Assembly (NCBI GenBank): GCA_902597175.1
Contig: CACJWN010000011.1
Coordinates: 1-35,020, forward strand
Length of the DNA stretch: 35,020 nucleotides
Reading direction: 5' to 3'
DNA from: an uncultured Pelagibacteraceae bacterium
GTDB taxonomy: Bacteria > Pseudomonadota > Alphaproteobacteria > Pelagibacterales > Pelagibacteraceae
This document shows positions 14,302 through 22,029 of this stretch, in pieces (position 1 is the first letter of the stretch; each line of letters begins with the position of its first letter). The notes under the pieces are model-generated. The model saw nothing but the letters and a program-made list of their open reading frames with translations, did not search any database and was not told the DNA's origin. The position numbers were made by a program, and so were the translations under genes.

Positions 14302-15747
14302 ATGTACGAGAAATTTGGTCAGTTTATTGACGGTAAATGGCAACAATCATCTAGTGGTGAAACTTACGAAGTAATTAATCCAGCTACTGAAGAAATTATT
14401 GGTAAGGCTTCAAAAGCAAACAGTAAAGATATACAAAGAGCTCTTAAATCAGCAGAAAAAGGATTAGAAATCTGGAAAAATACATCACCTTGGGAAAGAT
14501 CTAAAGTAATTAGAAAAATTTCAGACTTGATGAGAAAAAAAGTAGATATTTTATCAAAGTGGTTAACTTTAGAAGTAGGGAAACCTCTTACCGAAGGTCC
14601 GGGTGAAGTAGGCGGTGCAGCTGACATATTTGAATGGAACTCAGAGGAAACAAAAAGAATTTTTGGTGAAATAAATCAAAGTCGTTTTCCAAACACAAAA
14701 ATACATGTGGTTTACCAGCCTGTAGGTGTGGTTGCTGCATTAGTTCCATGGAATTTTCCAGTTATTTTAGCATCAAGAAAGATTTCAACTGCTTTAGCTG
14801 CTGGATGTTCAGTAATAGTAAAACCTGATGTGATTACTCCAGGTAGTGTAATGGAAATAGTTGATATATGTAAAGAGGCTGGTGTTCCACCTGGTGTTGT
14901 CAATTTATTATCAGGAGATCCAGCAGCGATTTCATCAGAATTAATTCAATCAGATATAATAAAAAAAATATCTATTACTGGATCAACCAGAGTTGGAAAG
15001 CTTATTCTAAAGCAAGCTGCAGATAAAGTGCAAAGAGTAACTATGGAATTAAGTGGCCACTCTCCATTTATAGTTTTTGACGACGTTGACTTAAATAAAG
15101 TAACAGATATGGCTATAACTGCCAAATTTAGAAATAATGGCCAAGTTTGTATATCTCCAAACAGATTTTACATTCATGAGAAGAAAAAAGATGAATTTGC
15201 TGACTTGATGGTTCAAAAAACTAAAAAATTAAAAATAGGTAATGGAATGGATAAGGATACTTTACTCGGACCCTTATGTACAAAAGAGAGATTAGAGGGC
15301 GTTGAAAAATTAGTAGAAACGACTAAGAAAGAAGGCGGTAAAGTTCTCTTAGGCGGTAAAAGAGCTGCTAACTTTAACAAAGGTTATTATTACGAACCAA
15401 CTATTTTTGATAATATTAAAGATAATTTTACAGTCATGAAAGAGGAACCTTTCGGTCCTATAGTTCCTATCTTATCTTTTAAAAGTTTTGATGAAGTTAT
15501 GAAAAGAGCTAATGATAATGAATTAGGTCTAGCAAGTTACGTTTATACAACAGATTTAAAAAGAGCAAATCAAGCGTCAGAAAAATTAGAAACAGGTTGT
15601 GTTGCTGTAAATACACCAGTTGTAGCAGTTGCAGAGGCACCATTTGGAGGAATTAAACAAACTGGTTACGGTAGAGAAGGTGGGTCTATGGCAATTAAAG
15701 ATTATTTAAATATTAAATACACTCACTTTGGCATTTCATACGAATGA
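14302..15747 (+). CDS. NAD(P)-dependent aldehyde dehydrogenase (semialdehyde dehydrogenase-like)
   Basis: Oxidises an aldehyde or semialdehyde to the acid. Complete ALDH fold: VPWNFPVILASRK (residues 148-160), cofactor Lys in VIVKPD, GSTRVGK, general-base Glu249 in MELSGHSP and nucleophile Cys283 in NNGQVCISP, at the usual 34-residue spacing. The C-terminal block has EEPFGPI and GYGREGG. It looks like succinate-semialdehyde-type (GabD) enzymes, not the CoA-acylating IolA/MmsA, whose signature near the active site differs. The stop overlaps the aldolase start (ATGA), so the two act together: the aldolase releases an aldehyde that this enzyme may oxidise. Confidence 0.88.
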   Translation: MYEKFGQFIDGKWQQSSSGETYEVINPATEEIIGKASKANSKDIQRALKSAEKGLEIWKNTSPWERSKVIRKISDLMRKKVDILSKWLTLEVGKPLTEGPGEVGGAADIFEWNSEETKRIFGEINQSRFPNTKIHVVYQPVGVVAALVPWNFPVILASRKISTALAAGCSVIVKPDVITPGSVMEIVDICKEAGVPPGVVNLLSGDPAAISSELIQSDIIKKISITGSTRVGKLILKQAADKVQRVTMELSGHSPFIVFDDVDLNKVTDMAITAKFRNNGQVCISPNRFYIHEKKKDEFADLMVQKTKKLKIGNGMDKDTLLGPLCTKERLEGVEKLVETTKKEGGKVLLGGKRAANFNKGYYYEPTIFDNIKDNFTVMKEEPFGPIVPILSFKSFDEVMKRANDNELGLASYVYTTDLKRANQASEKLETGCVAVNTPVVAVAEAPFGGIKQTGYGREGGSMAIKDYLNIKYTHFGISYE

Positions 15748-16535
15748 GAAAGAATAGATTAAAAGAGATTTTTAAATCTGGTAAATCTGCTGTTAATGGA
15801 TGGCTTCAAATACCGAATTCATTTACTGCAGAACTAATGGCAAATCAAAATTGGGACTCTTTGACTTTGGATATGCAACATGGTGTTATTGATTATCCTA
15901 ATGCAGTAGGCATGCTTCAAGCGATATCAACAAGTAAAGTTGTTCCTATGGCTAGAGTAAATTGGAATGAACCAGGACAAATTATGAAAATCCTCGATGC
16001 AGGTGCTTATGGTATTATTTGTCCAATGGTAAGTAATAAAAAGGAAGCAGAAAACTTTGTAAAAGCTTGTATGTACCCACCTAATGGATATAGAAGTTAT
16101 GGACCCATAAGAGGCTTAGTATATGGTGGGCCCGACTACGCTGATGAAGCTAATAATGAAATTTTAAAATTTGCTATGATCGAAACAAAAGAGTCATTAG
16201 AAAATTTAGATGAAATAATGAGAACTCCTGGTTTAGATGGAATTTATATTGGTCCTGCTGACTTAAGTTTAGCTATTGGACAAAAGCCAAGTTTTGATAA
16301 ACCTGAAGGAGATCCTGTTTATGATGTTATAATGAAAATTTTGGAGCATGCCAAAAAAAACAAAATAATTGCCGGCATACAAAATGGGCAACCTGAATAT
16401 GCGGAGAAAATGATCAAAAAAGGTTTCCAATTTGTTACAATAGGATCTGATCAAAGATACATGACAGCTGCTTCTAAGTCAGCCTTGAGTAAGTTAAAGA
16501 AAGATCAAAAAAAAGACACTGGTAAAGGTTATTAA
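15744..16535 (+). CDS. HpcH/HpaI family class II aldolase
   Basis: Metal-dependent aldolase of the 2-keto-3-deoxyacid type (HpaI, GarL, RhmA relatives) that normally splits a 2-oxo-acid into pyruvate and an aldehyde. Visible: NGWLQIPNSFTAELMA at the N-terminus, LTLDMQHGVIDY with the catalytic His, MARVNW with the pyruvate-binding Arg, metal-binding Glu in MIETKESLEN and Asp in GIYIGPADLSLA. Length 263 is normal. It overlaps the aldehyde dehydrogenase gene by ATGA. Its place beside the iol genes suggests a role in breaking down the ring-opened product or another sugar acid; the real substrate is unknown. Confidence 0.88.
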   Translation: MRKNRLKEIFKSGKSAVNGWLQIPNSFTAELMANQNWDSLTLDMQHGVIDYPNAVGMLQAISTSKVVPMARVNWNEPGQIMKILDAGAYGIICPMVSNKKEAENFVKACMYPPNGYRSYGPIRGLVYGGPDYADEANNEILKFAMIETKESLENLDEIMRTPGLDGIYIGPADLSLAIGQKPSFDKPEGDPVYDVIMKILEHAKKNKIIAGIQNGQPEYAEKMIKKGFQFVTIGSDQRYMTAASKSALSKLKKDQKKDTGKGY

Positions 16536-16540
16536 GTAAA

Positions 16541-16804
16541 ATGAAATATCATGTGTACATGCTCATTTCCCTGAGCAGAAAACCGGTAACTTACGTAGGT
16601 TATACCAATAATTTAAAGAGAAGAATCACACTTCATAATATGAGTAAAGGTGCAAAATTTACGAGAGGTAGAAAATGGAAATTAATTTATAAAGAAAAAT
16701 ATGGCTCAAAAAAAGAGGCAATTTCTAGAGAATATTATATAAAGAATAATAGAACATTAAGAAATAAGATAAAAAATGAAAATCTCAATACTGCTGCCTT
16801 ATAA
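16541..16804 (+). CDS. GIY-YIG domain protein (UPF0213/YhbQ-like)
   Basis: 87-residue stand-alone GIY-YIG nuclease-fold protein. It has VYML (GIY position), TYVGYTNNLKRR (YIG block plus conserved Arg), HNMSKGAKFTRGRKWKLIY and the metal-binding Glu in AISREYYIK. Members of this small family have debated DNA nuclease activity. It starts 5 nt after the aldolase stop. Its last 29 nt overlap the glycosyltransferase start in another frame. Confidence 0.85.
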   Translation: MKYHVYMLISLSRKPVTYVGYTNNLKRRITLHNMSKGAKFTRGRKWKLIYKEKYGSKKEAISREYYIKNNRTLRNKIKNENLNTAAL

Positions 16805-18908
16805 AGAAAATTTTTCTCCTGAGTATCCTGGTGCTGTATCTTTATTTGTTTACGAGACTACCAAAATTAGTAAATTTAGAAAAGATATAACAGTTTTTGG
16901 AAATACTAATTATAAAAAAATTTTCAATTTAAAATATATCAATATAGATTTAAGAAAAAATCTTTTTAGCAGTCAAACTAAAAATTATGTAAAAAAATTT
17001 ATTCAACTAGAAAAAAAAAATGACTCAACTATTATAGAAATTCATAATAGACCAAGTTATATTCAAATTTTATCAAAAGAAATTAAAAAGAAAATATTAG
17101 TTTTATATTTTCATAACGATCCCTTATCAATGGATGGTTCTCAAACTATACAAGAAAGAAAAAATTTACTTAAAACCTGTTATAAAATTATATTTAATAG
17201 TTCCTGGTCAAAAAAAAGATTCTTGGAAGGTTTAGAAAATAAATTTGTAAATAGTGATAAATTATTAATTTTTCACCAATCGGCTGCGAAAGGATCAATT
17301 GATCTTATAAATAAAAAAGAAAAATGGATCACATTTGTAGGCAAACTCAACAAAGCAAAAGGTTATGATGTTTTTGCGTCCTCTATAAAAAAAGTTCTTA
17401 ATCAAAATCCAAACTGGATGGCAAAAATAATTGGTGATGAAAAAAGAGAAAAGATCGCTCTTAACCATAATAGAGCTCATATTCTTGGATTTAAAAAACA
17501 TAATGAAGTTCTATCAATTTTTAAAAAGACAAGCATAGCTGTTGCATGTTCTCGTTGGGAAGAACCATTTGGTAGAACTAGCTTAGAGGCTTCAGCAAAT
17601 GGTTGCGCTGTAATAATAACAAATAAAGGAGGTCTACCTGAAACTGTAACTGACGCTAAAATTCTTAAAAATTTAAGTGTTAAAGAATTGACTAAAACAA
17701 TTAATTTTCTTATTAAAAATGATAAAACACGAAAAAAACTTCAAAATTTATCAATTAGAAATTTTTATTTGACCCATAATTATGTTGCTACATCAATAGA
17801 TAATTATAGGTCTGAAAAAATAAGTTACTTAAAAAAGATACATACAAAAAAATCTATTAAAAACTTAAGAATTTTACATATTACTAATTTTAATGAAAGG
17901 CTAGATGGCAGACTTTTTTTTAATACCGGTAGAAGAATAAACAATGGATTCATAAGACTAGGCCACAGTGTTTTAGGTTTTAGTGATAGAGATATACAAA
18001 AATATTATAAAAATATTAAAGACTTCAAAGGAGCTAAGACATTAAATGAAAAGCTTAGAAAAACTTGTTATAATTATAAACCAGATATGATTATGCTTGG
18101 ACATGCCGACTTAATATCTGCTGAACAAATAGCTGAGCTAAGAAATGATTATCCTAATGTAAAGTTTGGACAATGGTTTTTAGATCCTTTGAACAAAAAG
18201 GGTCCTGATTATCATAGAAATAAAAGTCGAATTCTTGATAAAATTGAACATTTAGATGCTTCTTTTGTAACGACAAGTCCTTCCGTATTAAATTTCTTAC
18301 CAAAAAATAATAATAATTTCTATATACCAAATCCAAGCGATGACTCCTTTGAAACTTTAAATAATTTTTTAAAGCCCTGTAATGTTGATGTTTTTTTTGC
18401 ACTTAGCCACGGAGTGCATAGAGGTGTTCTTAAATCAGGTAAAATTGATGATAGAGTAACTTTCCTAAAAAATTTATCTGAAAAAACACCAGATGTTAAA
18501 TTCGATATTTATGGGATAGATAAAATTCAACCTATTTGGGCAGATCATTATTTTAAAACGATAGCAAACGCAAAGATGGGTTTAAATTTAAGTAGAGGTG
18601 ATGCAATTAAATATTATAGTAGTGACAGAATAACACAAATTGTTGGAAATGGTTTAGTTTGTTTAATTGATGAAAAAACTCAATACAGAGATTTTTTTGA
18701 TAATTCAGAAATGGTTTTTTACAAAAACATAAGTGACTTATCTGAAAAAATTTTAAAAATTTCTAGAGATGAGAAATTAAGAAAATCTATTGGGAAAAAA
18801 GGTAAGAAAAAGTACATGAAATATTTTAATTCAACTTTAGTTGCTGATTTTATAATCAACAAAACCTTAGGCAGACCGGATAAAAAGAAATATTATTGGC
18901 ATGATTAA
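16776..18908 (+). CDS. two-domain glycosyltransferase (GT4 + CgeB-like GT-B)
   Basis: 710-residue protein, about twice a normal glycosyltransferase. The first half (about 1-360) is a GT4-like GT-B enzyme: MKISILLPYK start, WITFVGKLNKAKGYD nucleotide-side loop and an EX7E motif (Glu263 and Glu271) in WEEPFGRTSLEAS, then NKGGLPETV. The second half (from about 365, RILHITNFN) is a second GT-B unit of the type found in CgeB-like transferases, ending with GLNLSRGD and YYSSDRITQIVGNGLV. Likely cytosolic and adding two sugars to a surface polysaccharide or LPS. GC is visibly lower than in the iol block. The start is supported by the typical GT N-terminus despite its 29-nt overlap with the GIY-YIG gene. 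Confidence 0.85.
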   Translation: MKISILLPYKENFSPEYPGAVSLFVYETTKISKFRKDITVFGNTNYKKIFNLKYINIDLRKNLFSSQTKNYVKKFIQLEKKNDSTIIEIHNRPSYIQILSKEIKKKILVLYFHNDPLSMDGSQTIQERKNLLKTCYKIIFNSSWSKKRFLEGLENKFVNSDKLLIFHQSAAKGSIDLINKKEKWITFVGKLNKAKGYDVFASSIKKVLNQNPNWMAKIIGDEKREKIALNHNRAHILGFKKHNEVLSIFKKTSIAVACSRWEEPFGRTSLEASANGCAVIITNKGGLPETVTDAKILKNLSVKELTKTINFLIKNDKTRKKLQNLSIRNFYLTHNYVATSIDNYRSEKISYLKKIHTKKSIKNLRILHITNFNERLDGRLFFNTGRRINNGFIRLGHSVLGFSDRDIQKYYKNIKDFKGAKTLNEKLRKTCYNYKPDMIMLGHADLISAEQIAELRNDYPNVKFGQWFLDPLNKKGPDYHRNKSRILDKIEHLDASFVTTSPSVLNFLPKNNNNFYIPNPSDDSFETLNNFLKPCNVDVFFALSHGVHRGVLKSGKIDDRVTFLKNLSEKTPDVKFDIYGIDKIQPIWADHYFKTIANAKMGLNLSRGDAIKYYSSDRITQIVGNGLVCLIDEKTQYRDFFDNSEMVFYKNISDLSEKILKISRDEKLRKSIGKKGKKKYMKYFNSTLVADFIINKTLGRPDKKKYYWHD

Positions 18909-19909
18909 TGAAAAAATTTCTTATTTTCAGAACAGATAGAGTAGGGGATTTTATACTTAGCTGTATTTTAATTAAATCAATAAAAAGAAATAAACCAAAC
19001 TCTGAAATTACTGTCGTATGTTCAGATCAAAATTACGAATATGTAAAGAATTATAGCTTAGTTGATAATGCTAAATTGTATCCTAAAAAATTTGTAAAAA
19101 AAATTTCTTTCTATCATTCAATGATTAAAAGCAATTATGATTGTATTCTTTCGTTGGATGGAAAAAAAAGGTCTATTTTTGCATGCGTTGTTACCAAAGC
19201 TCAGTTAAAGATCATCACAGTAACCAAAAAAATATATAAAAAAATATTTTTTAATTTAAAAGATAATATTCTTTTAATTAGTGATTTTAAATCAAGGATA
19301 GAAGAATTTAAATTTATATTAAGAAAGATAGATATAGATTATTCTGATAAAGATTTAGATATTTTTGATAATGAAAAAATAAAGTCAAATTTTGATATAA
19401 TAAACAAAATACCTGAAAAATCATTTAATCAATTACATTTAGATGAGAAATGGATTACAGAAGCGTATAGGGGAAGGCGAAAATTAAGAAATTTTGAGCC
19501 TATTAATGCGTCAATAACTCAAATGTGTCGTTTTATAGAGAAGTTTGTAACAAAATCTAAAAAAGATATAGTTATATCTGCTGGAGCTGAAACAAACAGT
19601 TTAATTAATGGTGTTAAAGAAAAATTTAATAAAAATGGTGTTTTTGCTATAAATGGTAAAAAGATAATAATTTTAGATAATATATCTTTTACAGATTTAA
19701 AAATAATTATAAAAAAAGCAGAATTAATTATTGCATGTCATGGTTCTCCAGCACACATTGCTTCTTCATTTAATACTAAAATAATAGATATTTTTGATCA
19801 AAAAAATGAAGAATTTTATAAATTCTATACTAATCACCTAAGAAATTATAAATATTTATATAGAAAAGATTTTAATATTTTAGCAAAAAATATCTTACAG
19901 TTAATTTAA
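18908..19909 (+). CDS. glycosyltransferase family 9 (heptosyltransferase-like)
   Basis: 333 residues beginning FLIFRTDRVGDFILSC, the N-terminal signature of ADP-heptose:LPS heptosyltransferases and other GT9 enzymes. The C-terminal half has IVISAGAETNS and ELIIACHGSPAHIASSFNTKIIDIF, the nucleotide-sugar-binding block where GT9 enzymes place a Gly-Pro/Ser and His. The middle is divergent and very Lys/Ile-rich. It is coupled to the preceding glycosyltransferase by a one-base TAATG overlap and ends convergently on the FkbM gene with a shared TTAA. Likely role: LPS core or surface-glycan assembly at the cytosolic face. Confidence 0.8.
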   Translation: MKKFLIFRTDRVGDFILSCILIKSIKRNKPNSEITVVCSDQNYEYVKNYSLVDNAKLYPKKFVKKISFYHSMIKSNYDCILSLDGKKRSIFACVVTKAQLKIITVTKKIYKKIFFNLKDNILLISDFKSRIEEFKFILRKIDIDYSDKDLDIFDNEKIKSNFDIINKIPEKSFNQLHLDEKWITEAYRGRRKLRNFEPINASITQMCRFIEKFVTKSKKDIVISAGAETNSLINGVKEKFNKNGVFAINGKKIIILDNISFTDLKIIIKKAELIIACHGSPAHIASSFNTKIIDIFDQKNEEFYKFYTNHLRNYKYLYRKDFNILAKNILQLI

Positions 19910-20601
19910 ATTTTAAATTTTTTATTAACAAAAACAAGATCAGAGTTAACCCAATTTATTAATTTATAATTATTTTTTTTCAAAAGTTTAAAAACACTAC
20001 TTTTGAGTATAAAATTTAAATTTTGATTTTGTGTTTCAATTTCTCGATTTGAAGTATTTAAGATTTCGATTACTATACAATCAATATTATATTTCTTAAA
20101 CTTAAAGTTTTTTAAAGCTTCATATTCATGATTTTCTATATCTATGCTTAATAAATTAAATTTTGATTTTTTGTAAGGAGAATTCTCTATTATATCATTT
20201 AAAGTTGTTGTTTCTCTTACAATAATTTTTTTAGGTTTTGCCTTTCTTTTTTTAACTAACTTTGCATCAACTGTATTAAGAGCTGATCGTTCATGATAAA
20301 AATAATATCTAATTTTATTTTTTTTACTACTTACTAAAGCACTTATATTATAATCATTTTTTCTTAAATTATTAAATTCTTTAATAGATTTTTTATCTGC
20401 ATCTATATTTATTCCTTCCCAGCCTCTTTTATGAAGTAAGTATGTATTATTATGTTTAATTGGATGGTTGCATCCTAAATCTATATAAATTCCTTTTTTC
20501 ATTTTAGAAAACATTCTATCAATAATCAAATCGACGCCACTGATAGAATAAGAGATTTTGGTATACTTATTATAATAAATTTTTTTAAATATATTTTTCA
20601 T
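19906..20601 (-). CDS. FkbM family methyltransferase
   Basis: SAM-dependent methyltransferase of the FkbM type, often modifying sugars in surface polysaccharides. Visible: SAM-binding IYIDLGCNHP, YLLHKRGWEGINIDADKK, and the FkbM motif LLSIDIENHEYEALKN followed by IVIEI. Length 231 is normal. Its ATG overlaps the TGA of the upstream recombinase gene (ATGA), which is unusual company and suggests one transcript from the recombinase promoter. It faces the glycosyltransferases convergently and probably belongs to the same glycan module. Confidence 0.85.
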   Translation of the reverse strand: MKNIFKKIYYNKYTKISYSISGVDLIIDRMFSKMKKGIYIDLGCNHPIKHNNTYLLHKRGWEGINIDADKKSIKEFNNLRKNDYNISALVSSKKNKIRYYFYHERSALNTVDAKLVKKRKAKPKKIIVRETTTLNDIIENSPYKKSKFNLLSIDIENHEYEALKNFKFKKYNIDCIVIEILNTSNREIETQNQNLNFILKSSVFKLLKKNNYKLINWVNSDLVFVNKKFKI

Positions 20602-21512
20602 TTATTTGAAATTTTATTTAATGCATTATTTTTAAACAAGTCTGCTTCTTTGATATATCTTCGCACCATGTCAACAGATTTATGACCAGTCATAGCCATG
20701 ATGTTTCTTTCATTAGCTCCATATTCAGCTGTTGTTGTAGCAAAACCAGATCTAAGACTGTGACCAGCATATTTTTTTTCATCTAAACCTGCACTCAAAG
20801 CATGTTTCTTTATTATTAAAGCTACATTTTTATCTGATATGGGAAAAACTAAATCATTTTTGTTCTCAATCATCCAGTTTTTAAGATGATCAACTGGGCA
20901 ATATTCTAAATATTTAAAAGAGGGGATTGCTTTAGTCATTCCCTCTCCAGATTGATCAGATTTTGATTTTTTTACAAATATTTTTACTCCTTCGTTGACA
21001 AATTCAACATCATCTCTTGTAATAGCCACAAGCTCTGATCTTCTAAACCCCCCTGAGAAACCAACTAAAATTAAAGATTTATCCCTTAATTTTTTAAATT
21101 CACTTACTTTGGACTCATTTATTACTTTAATGATTTGTTTTAAATCATTGAATAATAATGGTTTTTTTGCTTTTTGATGAACTCCTATTTGTCTTTTAAT
21201 ACCTAGTAAATTTTCAACTATGATTGGATGTTTCGTATCTAAATAATGACCTTTGTATCTATGCATAACATTTATAGACGCTAAACGTCTTTTTAAAGTA
21301 CTGTATTTAGATTGTTTCGATAAGTATGTCATATACAGAGAGACTATCTTTGGGTCTGTAGGCATGCTTTTCATCCCATGTTTTGAACAAAATAATGCAA
21401 AGTCGTTAAAATCAGATTTATAGGCTCGAATGGTATTTTTAGCTTTCGATAGCTTCAAATTGTCTAAAGTCTCAATTTCAAGTTTTTTAATTTCAGTTGT
21501 TAAATCTTTCAT
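20598..21512 (-). CDS. tyrosine recombinase / site-specific integrase
   Basis: 304-residue site-specific recombinase. The N-terminal SAM-like core-binding domain is about 20-110 (NTIRAYKSDFNDFALFC). The catalytic domain is intact: Arg157 in GGFRRSEL, Lys in KKSKSD (about 182-184), His251 and Arg254 in GHSLRSGF, His277 in TGHKS and nucleophile Tyr286 in RRYIKEADLF. The length is like XerC/XerD, but the sequence looks like the stand-alone proteobacterial integrase family found on plasmids and islands. The gene has a near-consensus promoter and an 11-7-11 palindrome in its leader, and is followed by an overlapping methyltransferase. It may be a dimer resolvase acting at its own site, or an island integrase. 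Confidence 0.9.
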   Translation of the reverse strand: MKDLTTEIKKLEIETLDNLKLSKAKNTIRAYKSDFNDFALFCSKHGMKSMPTDPKIVSLYMTYLSKQSKYSTLKRRLASINVMHRYKGHYLDTKHPIIVENLLGIKRQIGVHQKAKKPLLFNDLKQIIKVINESKVSEFKKLRDKSLILVGFSGGFRRSELVAITRDDVEFVNEGVKIFVKKSKSDQSGEGMTKAIPSFKYLEYCPVDHLKNWMIENKNDLVFPISDKNVALIIKKHALSAGLDEKKYAGHSLRSGFATTTAEYGANERNIMAMTGHKSVDMVRRYIKEADLFKNNALNKISNK

Positions 21513-21513
21513 A

Positions 21514-21542
21514 ATTTCCGATAACCATTAATTATCGGAAAT
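21514..21542. repeat. 11-7-11 inverted repeat, candidate recombinase core site/operator
   Basis: Perfect 11-bp arms ATTTCCGATAA (21514-21524) and TTATCGGAAAT (21532-21542) around a 7-nt spacer CCATTAA. Tyrosine recombinase crossover sites have two 11-13 bp inverted arms and a 6-8 bp spacer. The inner ends ATAA/TTAT match those of bacterial dif sites. It lies one base before the recombinase start codon and overlaps the -10 box and expected start of its promoter, so binding could also autorepress. Confidence 0.6.
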
Positions 21543-21569
21543 AATATATTAAGTGATTTTATATGTCAA
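21541..21569 (-). promoter_or_regulatory. strong sigma-70-type promoter of the recombinase gene
   Basis: On the minus strand, a perfect TTGACA (21569-21564), a 17-nt spacer and TATTAT (21546-21541) precede the recombinase. Transcription would start near 21534, inside the right arm of the inverted repeat. It is the best promoter match I saw in the window. Confidence 0.65.
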
Positions 21570-21754
21570 TAAGTATAATTTTAAAGATCATGATTAAATT
21601 TATTCTTCCAATAGCAGTATTTATTGCAGCCGTTTATGGGATTTCGTATTTCTGGACTAACTCAAGTTCAAAAGGCAAAAAAATGATAGCTTTAGGCTTA
21701 ATAATAGCCCTTATAATAGGCATATCTTTAACAATTTACTTAATTTTTGACTAA
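21563..21754 (+). CDS. small two-helix membrane protein, function unknown
   Basis: 63 residues with two predicted membrane helices (about 10-30, IKFILPIAVFIAAVYGI, and about 43-61, ALGLIIALIIGISLTIYLI) joined by a short polar, basic loop (WTNSSSKGKK). I do not recognise a family. Its last base is the first base of the next ATG (TAATG), which supports a real gene coupled to the alkyltransferase. The start may instead be the Met at 21590, since the ATG at 21563 lies on top of the -35 box of the divergent recombinase promoter. Confidence 0.65.
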   Translation: MSISIILKIMIKFILPIAVFIAAVYGISYFWTNSSSKGKKMIALGLIIALIIGISLTIYLIFD

Positions 21755-22029
21755 TGAAACTAAAAGGAACAAAATTTCAGCTAAAAGTATGGGCTTATTT
21801 GAGGAAAATACCTCGTGGATGCGTTAAAAGCTACTCTCAAGTGGCAAAAGGCATAGGAAAACCGCTTGCTGTACGTGCTGTAGCCAATGCTATAGGAAAA
21901 AACCCCCATGCACCCAAAATTCCTTGCCATAGAGTGATTAGATCCGATGGATCGCTTGGTGGCTATTCAGGCAAAGGAGGAGTTAAAACTAAGAGATTTT
22001 TGCTTCAAAAGGAGGGTATAACCCTCTAG
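21754..22029 (+). CDS. ogt: minimal methylated-DNA--protein-cysteine methyltransferase (Ogt/MGMT domain)
   Basis: Removes alkyl groups from O6-alkylguanine by suicidal transfer to a cysteine. The 91-residue protein is only the C-terminal DNA-binding/active domain: start FQLKVWAYLRKIPRG, Tyr-Ser-Gln (SYSQVA), the Arg41 finger in AVRAVANAIGKN, the active site PCHRV with Cys58, then GSLGGYSGKGG. The N-terminal Ada/Ogt domain is absent. The catalytic Cys is present, so it is not an alkyltransferase-like (ATL) protein with Trp. It is coupled by TAATG to the small membrane protein. A GAGGGT/ACCCTC hairpin overlaps its stop codon. The symbol is for the family only. Confidence 0.9.
   Translation: MKLKGTKFQLKVWAYLRKIPRGCVKSYSQVAKGIGKPLAVRAVANAIGKNPHAPKIPCHRVIRSDGSLGGYSGKGGVKTKRFLLQKEGITL

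Follow-up and report, generated by a model that had tools for sequence, protein, structure and literature searches.

A Cre-clade tyrosine recombinase and its dif-like site at the replication terminus, a very probable chromosome dimer-resolution system of Pelagibacteraceae

Background

How might Pelagibacteraceae separate dimeric chromosomes if XerC and XerD are missing from them? This question is raised by a tyrosine recombinase gene and an adjoining palindrome in a contig of an uncultured Pelagibacteraceae bacterium (CACJWN010000011.1, contig C11 of a 988-kb assembly that is 86% complete), the 35,020 nucleotides of which are called the window below. The host is placed in SAR11 (Pelagibacteraceae / Pelagibacterales) as judged from the best named relatives of the recombinase, the best 80 of at least 254 matches being used. 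A survey of 2009 gives P. ubique as a species without a dif/Xer system (PMC2731167), and no description of a SAR11 Xer/dif system is found among the papers listed by the literature searches, with subscription papers and preprints outside their scope. A preliminary description, made from the sequence alone, took the locus for a self-contained recombination and autoregulation module comparable to XerS/difSL and XerH/difH, serving either the resolution of dimers or the attachment of an island. It left four questions: whether the palindrome is kept beside orthologous genes, whether it occurs once or twice in a genome, whether canonical xerC and xerD exist elsewhere, and where the recombinase falls in a tree. 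Our analysis answers these in turn and indicates that the locus is very probably the dif/Xer-type dimer-resolution system of Pelagibacteraceae, i.e. a single recombinase with a single terminus site, in which a Cre/plasmid-type module appears to have replaced XerCD/dif.

Results

Recombinase gene, promoter and site

The gene (Table 1) encodes a full-length tyrosine recombinase of 304 amino acids, with the PF00589 domain and an N-terminal SAM-like domain. Its active-site residues, assigned by motif, are R157, K184, H251, R254, H277 and Y286, and none of the six varies among 13 orthologues; when four viral relatives join the alignment, five are still invariant and H277 is nearly so. The complete R-K-H-R-H-Y recombinase first seen in the sequence is thus confirmed. 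Only the single base 21513 stands between the ATG, ending at 21512, and a perfect 11-7-11 palindrome of 29 bp, which reads ATTTCCGATAA-TTAATGG-TTATCGGAAAT in gene sense and is found at the very position first assigned to it. With up to three mismatches allowed, the palindrome is found once in the window and in none of 100 shuffles, and the 11-base arm occurs at two places only in the whole assembly, both within the palindrome. The near-consensus promoter, TTGACA and TATTAT at 17 bp from each other, likewise has the coordinates and spacing described before, and its -10 hexamer overlaps the palindrome by two bases, so that promoter and site are fused.

Conservation beside the gene

Among the best 30 loci, the palindrome with its 7-nt spacer lies directly before the gene in all 27 orthologues at 65-100% identity, and the three orthologues at 60-62% identity all keep the GATAA-N7-TTATC core, with changed arms of ACTAA type on either side of it. 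The palindrome is indeed kept beside orthologous genes: all 80 named loci picked by protein have the core no farther than 120 nt upstream, and 79 of them have the spacer TTAATNG. When 12 loci picked by the core itself are joined to these 80, the spacers of the 92 loci are TTAATGG (68), TTAATTG (20), TTAATAG (3) and TTTATGG (1), with pairing at 8 to 11 of the 11 arm positions. The upstream alignment of the named loci has near-invariant core positions and variable adjoining ones. This conservation across relatives places the palindrome far beyond chance. Arms of the type labelled B occur in eight rows, all of them in one group of the first tree with low support (84/44), showing that arm type follows the protein (the first tree is without L449, and of L314 only the last 330 residues enter either tree).

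The promoter is conserved along with the site. TTGACA is matched at 5 or 6 of 6 positions in 79 of 79 loci (one of the 80, with less than 80 nt upstream, being left out) and exactly in 65, with 49 of 200 shuffled upstream stretches reaching 5 of 6 somewhere; in 72 of the 79 loci it stands 32-34 nt before GATAA. On the whole, the module of gene, site and promoter is conserved in Pelagibacteraceae.

Copy number and spread in the family

The exact core is identified in 286 of 397 family genomes, in 117 of the 140 that are well covered (at least 90% complete) and in 13 of 14 genera, never in more than one copy. The exact A-type 9-base arms with any spacer are present in 43 of 169 genomes of the genus, and in each of the 43 exactly once, the control being without matches; the site therefore occurs once, not twice, wherever these arms are found in the genus. 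Of the 297 genomes of the order, 204 have the gene itself (E up to 1e-20), and the matches listed all belong to the window's family. All 11 single-contig genomes of the family have the gene, and 10 of them the exact core. One single-contig genome (G247) has the gene and lacks the exact core pattern; its site has probably diverged.

A PF00589 protein is present in 120 of the 169 genus genomes and is the only one in 110 of these 120, a count in which orthology is confirmed for only part of the proteins and which includes one lying in a 458-aa frame (G188). The genus typically has one high-identity match per genome, and the sister family mostly two weak ones (about 21-27% identity). The sister family is also without the site, since none of its 12 well-covered genomes has the core with one mismatch allowed; among its 40 genomes overall two have such a core, and the control matched three genomes.

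Position at the replication terminus

The site sits at the replication terminus, as marked by the switch of GC skew. On two long contigs the cumulative GC-skew peak nearly coincides with it: 265,738 against 264,651 on a 472-kb contig of G021 (1.1 kb apart), and 151,992 against 151,237 on a 215-kb contig of G054 (0.75 kb apart). Two complete chromosomes, sampled on a coarse 40-kb grid at half coverage, are in agreement: the skew peak is near 650 kb and the site at 618 kb on G295, and the peak is at about 850 kb and the site at 920 kb on G259; G263, of which only the first part of the sequence was at hand, is left out of this chromosome-wide comparison. Skew is higher upstream than downstream of the site in all 54 loci with both flanks longer than 5 kb (40 of them with both signs as expected) and in 12 of 12 further loci, and the window itself has its GC-skew switch near 20 kb. 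The FtsK gamma domain is detected in 35 of 41 genus genomes, including 4 of 4 well-covered ones.

Absence of XerC and XerD

In the eight complete family chromosomes examined, XerC and XerD are absent. Six of these have one PF00589 protein and two have two, and in all eight one such protein adjoins the site; the additional proteins are in frames of 355 and 450 amino acids. Occasional second tyrosine recombinases in SAR11 (348-464 aa), unlike the conserved one, are seen at G243:C1:676679-677146, G235:C1:1204798-1205241, L064-L066 and L069. The sister family has two tyrosine recombinases in 7 of 7 genomes, one of them XerD-like in all seven (35-44% identity to E. coli XerD) and the second having XerC as best match (about 36-40%) in the five that are readable, the other two giving no frame. 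Hence the canonical pair is missing from the complete chromosomes examined and present next door in the sister family. The SAR11 recombinase is 21-31% identical to E. coli XerC and XerD; in this comparison with the E. coli proteins L453, L065, L446 and L448 are without a frame and L449 has a short one. Strain HTCC1062 has a gene given as xerD, SAR11_1019, with mRNA raised (8.50 and 7.63) in two of the conditions studied (PMC5069961). SAR11_1019 is probably the orthologue of the window's recombinase.

Relationship of the recombinase to Cre

The recombinase stays far below the curated cut-offs for XerD (77.4 bits, cut-off 329.6) and XerC (73.1, cut-off 335.15) and the NCBIfam cut-offs for XerS (43, cut-off 267) and archaeal XerA (79.5, cut-off 220). 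In a Foldseek search with its AlphaFold model (predicted local distance difference test, pLDDT, 83.5; predicted template modelling score, pTM, 0.66), Cre or its variant Tre takes up each of the first 32 rows. The VIA comparison matches the fold to Cre with Z 24.5 over 277 residues at 3.4 Å, followed by XerA (Z 19.7, root-mean-square deviation 15.0), XerH (18.9), the XerD C-terminal domain (13.0) and full-length XerD (12.7), scores which depend on conformation, the Cre and XerH entries being DNA-bound; the absence of a fold family from the VIA list is not counted as exclusion.

The tree is in accordance with the folds. In a tree of 44 rows (25 taken from the first tree and 19 new), the SAR11 proteins form a single clade (100/100), which a 100/100 split separates from XerCD and places together with Cre and the recombinases of plasmids and viral contigs, with the exact sister and donor not resolved. 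The tree asked for in the preliminary description thus gives a clear answer with respect to XerC and XerD, and its rows hold no XerH. Judged from fold and tree, the recombinase is by descent neither XerC nor XerD and belongs to the clade of Cre and plasmid-borne recombinases.

Relatives on plasmids and other contigs

Relatives of the recombinase at E up to 1e-20 are found on 1109 of 72,556 plasmid records, with up to about 40% identity among the 25 matches listed; among 50,697 phage records one has a relative at 1e-15. From the 25 listed, 12 plasmid relatives were picked, and four of these have a palindrome with at least 10 of 11 positions paired (11-6/7-11) no more than 271 nt upstream of the annotated start. 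The closest to SAR11 is that of an Alicyclobacillus dauci plasmid, ACTTCCGATAA tttaacg TTATCAGAAGT, which stands 50 nt before the start and has one mismatch to the 9-base SAR11 arms, with none of 100 shuffles as good. The other three are 11-7-11 in Protochlamydia (108 nt upstream), 11-6-11 in Sporosarcina (271 nt) and 11-6-11 in Rickettsiales Ac37b (72 nt). Of the remaining eight, three have 9 of 11 positions paired and five have no palindrome; the shuffles cover the match to the SAR11 arms only, so this palindrome count is without a shuffle control of its own.

A palindrome of this kind before a recombinase start is also seen in viral or plasmid-like contigs. Seventeen arm-bearing contigs have a recombinase match, and 16 of them were examined (L548, with a weak match, being left out); in 10 of the 16 a possible recombinase start follows the 9-base arms at 2-41 nt; the arms stand, for example, 8 nt before a recombinase of 38% identity in L498 and 2-3 nt before one of 35% identity in L483, L520 and L521. 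In four contigs with GC around 0.6 (L481, L488, L499 and L514), the same 9-base arms stand 35 nt before the start of a distant recombinase (25-26% identity). Viral integrases found by protein similarity (L311-L317) have no SAR11-like palindrome before their starts. In part of this recombinase group, then, a palindrome next to the start looks like a trait of older date, and its presence in other recombinases of the group argues that SAR11 acquired gene and site together.

Arms on pelagiphage-like contigs

The arms with any spacer are present in at least 120 IMG/VR contigs, and the reversed control gives two. The 17-bp core alone was rejected as a tag of viral contigs, being too short to be specific, and gave way to the full arms with the reversed control. 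Among the 123 contigs analysed, a large terminase gene (terL) homologous to the pelagiphage type is present in 69, and in 64 of these 69 the site lies 266-553 bp from terL (e.g. L161:2011-2035 and L186:2270-2294). Two such contigs have terminases that share 98.6% identity with the one of isolate HTVC106P and 61% with the one of HTVC010P. HTVC106P, an isolate phage of HTCC7211, itself has the site with one base missing (L320:1510-1536). Over 12 isolate phage loci, GATAA-N7-TTATC occurs six times, with 0.18 expected, and five of the six lie upstream of terL. No tyrosine recombinase is identified among the frames of at least 80 aa in HTVC106P or HTVC010P, and the arm-bearing phage-like contigs are mostly without a recombinase match. 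In HTVC100P (L327:229-295) two GATAA..TTATC sites stand in tandem: one has a left arm of A type, the other has arms of B type, and the spacers are of 7 and 6 nt.

The spacers of the phages, given on the canonical strand, are CGTTTAA (23), CGATTAA (16), CATTTAA (15), CAATTAA (9) and others. The commonest host spacer, TTAATGG (= CCATTAA), is found in none of the 123 viral contigs and in 40 of 43 host genomes. Rarer host spacers are shared by 12 of the 123: TTAATTG (CAATTAA) by nine, TTAATGA (TCATTAA) by two and TTAATAG (CTATTAA) by one. In addition, three B-type viral contigs carry TTAATTG, the sole spacer searched for B-type arms.

Neighbourhood of the locus

The features of the locus are collected in Table 1. 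On one side of the site the window has glycosyltransferase and FkbM genes (14302-20601), and the side with ogt is conserved. The glycosyltransferase/FkbM stretch looks to be a variable region that ends at the proposed dif.

Table 1. Coordinates in the window of the recombinase gene, the proposed site, its promoter and the adjoining genes
Feature	Position	Strand	Basis
Tyrosine recombinase gene, 304 aa; proposed SAR11 Xer-type, Cre clade	20598..21512	-	Pfam domains, motif residues, fold search, tree
Proposed dif-like site 11-7-11, ATTTCCGATAA TTAATGG TTATCGGAAAT	21514..21542	-	Sequence, conservation, copy number
Left arm of site (gene sense)	21532..21542	-	Sequence
Asymmetric 7-nt spacer TTAATGG (gene sense)	21525..21531	-	Sequence, conservation in relatives
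Right arm of site (gene sense)	21514..21524	-	Sequence
-10 hexamer TATTAT, two bases common to site	21541..21546	-	Sequence; spacing conserved
-35 hexamer TTGACA, 17 bp from -10	21564..21569	-	Sequence; 5 or 6 of 6 in 79/79 loci
O6-methylguanine-DNA methyltransferase-like (ogt) gene, common neighbour	21754..22029	+	Homologue somewhere in 99/111 loci (some genomes twice)
FkbM-type methyltransferase gene, 4-nt overlap with recombinase stop; variable flank, outside conserved module	19906..20601	-	Homologue in 13/111 loci

Discussion

A probable dimer-resolution system and its alternatives

Taken together, conservation, single copy, terminus position and the absence of XerCD support the first option of the preliminary description, dimer resolution. 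The proposed course is as follows. One recombinase would bind both 11-bp arms of the single terminus site. When homologous recombination leaves two sister chromosomes fused as a dimer, recombination between their two copies of the site would free the monomers before division; by what is known of tyrosine recombinases, four protomers would bring two sites together in a synapse and swap strands across the spacer. The terminus position would bring the reaction to the septum, where FtsK acts. The site spans the expected promoter start, and from this anatomy the bound protein probably represses its own gene; the autoregulation suggested earlier has become more likely with the fixed spacing of promoter and site and is still deduced rather than observed. 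As to origin, the chromosome terminus would have received a plasmid multimer-resolution module that took the place of XerCD/dif, the plasmid relatives being assumed from their location to be multimer resolvers. Recombination at the site, dimer resolution, dependence on FtsK, autorepression and the direction of transfer are thus what we infer from the data.

Several observations weigh against this interpretation or parts of it. By E-value, the top match of the recombinase in the PDB profile search is XerD (1.7e-12), over residues 140-289, i.e. the catalytic part only, followed by Cre (6.8e-12) over residues 21-292, nearly the full length, and XerH (3.1e-6). For the direction from plasmid to chromosome, 17 of 41 inner branches of the tree are open and the Cre branch is very long. 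The exact core is absent in 23 of the 140 well-covered family genomes, and both gene and site are missing from 2 of 14 well-covered genus genomes and from G238, which is 99% complete; assembly gaps are a likely cause of the cases with missing gene or site. On the complete chromosome of G259 the skew peak (about 850 kb, on the same grid and coverage as for G295) is some 70 kb away from the site at 920 kb. Among the strand-biased 6-8-mers toward the site on two contigs, no convincing KOPS (FtsK orienting polar sequence) motif is found; the best skewed words, e.g. AAGAGG with 302 against 107, may reflect general purine skew. Finally, many loci are close relatives and some genomes are in both the named and the unnamed locus sets, so the counts are not independent.

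Among the other explanations, the one that survives best, although we regard it as improbable, is that the palindrome is only an operator for autorepression, the recombinase acting elsewhere or being now a pure regulator. The site does overlap the -10 hexamer and the expected start at constant spacing to TTGACA, tyrosine-recombinase folds can be regulators (YopR, MrpR and SroF are among the fold matches), and a bare operator beside the gene would be conserved too, a point that also tells against dimer resolution. However, the catalytic residues are invariant in the 13 orthologues, and an operator does not need the asymmetric 7-nt spacer, which is kept as TTAATNG in 79 of 80 loci. Such a role would also leave the terminus position and the loss of XerCD unexplained, no other copy of the arm exists in the assembly, and most of the phage-like contigs with the arms have no recombinase match. 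Considerably less probable still is another function at the terminus, such as the unlinking of catenated sisters, or a site kept mainly for phage-related reasons; the retention of FtsK and the same arms on phage-like contigs would agree with it, but in other lineages dimer resolution is typically the work of one recombinase at a single-copy terminus site (PMC2731167, PMC9765430). The attachment-site option, with the recombinase as the integrase of an island or prophage and the palindrome as an att core expected twice around it, is the least probable of all and largely refuted: the relatives on mobile replicons and the variable glycosyltransferase/FkbM flank on one side would suit it, but each of the 43 genus genomes that have these arms, with any spacer, has them only once, no second arm pair is found in the window's own assembly, the gene is in all 11 single-contig family genomes, 99 of 111 loci have an ogt homologue, and the window's three tRNAs are not at the site.

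Phages and the wider meaning

A broader picture, which we offer tentatively and hold somewhat less likely than its opposite, extends dimer resolution by the Cre-clade enzyme to the phages. SAR11 would have a natural Cre/lox-type chromosome, in which a plasmid module displaced XerCD/dif in the ancestor of Pelagibacteraceae, and pelagiphages of the HTVC010P/HTVC106P type would parasitise the host enzyme by means of arms beside terL with mostly private spacers. The host recombinase would then act between phage copies, in multimer resolution or packaging control, without exchange with most host chromosomes. The mostly private phage spacers fit such use of the host enzyme between phage copies and provide a lead; the rarer host spacers shared by phages and the B-type contigs with TTAATTG have slightly lowered our confidence in phage parasitism. 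For phages with host-type spacers, integration at the host site is possible.

Pelagibacteraceae are among the most abundant cells on Earth, and the data indicate that in them the function is kept with its machinery swapped for a Cre-clade enzyme. This opens to test how a self-sufficient chromosomal recombinase is restrained, whether the FtsK gamma domain keeps a role without XerD, and how Xer is replaced in evolution. For practical use, the site marks the replication terminus in SAR11 assemblies, the arms are a sequence tag by which viral contigs may be assigned to SAR11 hosts, and very common ocean phages have in the recombinase a candidate host factor.

Comparison with known systems

The XerCD/dif system of most Proteobacteria has in common with SAR11 the terminus site, the inner arm ends ATAA/TTAT and the FtsK gamma domain. 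It differs in that SAR11 has one recombinase, of 21-31% identity and in a separate clade, and symmetric arms.

Single-recombinase systems are closer in arrangement. XerS, XerH and XerA (PMC5357621) and XerL (PMC9765430) are described as such systems. XerS/difSL of streptococci and lactococci and XerH/difH of Helicobacter and Campylobacter resemble SAR11 in having one recombinase, a site by the gene near the terminus and no XerCD (PMC2731167, PMC5357621). The earlier comparison with them holds for this arrangement and fails for the protein, which is Cre/plasmid-recombinase-like: XerS has about 355 aa rather than 304 and a model whose cut-off is far above the score of the SAR11 protein, and XerH is a weaker match than Cre in both sequence and fold. 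Unlike in these systems, the SAR11 site overlaps the promoter itself. XerL/dif of Legionellales, likened to SAR11 by its description, is also a single recombinase with a terminus site in a group once said to be without Xer, and its site too is present on a mobile element; however, dif and xerL are more than 400 kb apart (PMC9765430), whereas the SAR11 site and gene abut.

Cre/loxP of the phage-plasmid P1 provides the closest solved fold, over nearly the whole length, and Cre is on the same side of the tree as the SAR11 protein. Both sites have symmetric arms around an asymmetric spacer, with the geometry 13-8-13 in loxP and 11-7-11 in SAR11. Cre/loxP can reportedly replace dif functionally in E. 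coli, a finding ascribed to Leslie and Sherratt in 1995. In P1, lox and cre are about 0.4 kb apart and separated by another gene, whereas the SAR11 site abuts its gene; and while Cre and the plasmid recombinases reside on plasmids, the SAR11 module is chromosomal, family-wide and located at the terminus.

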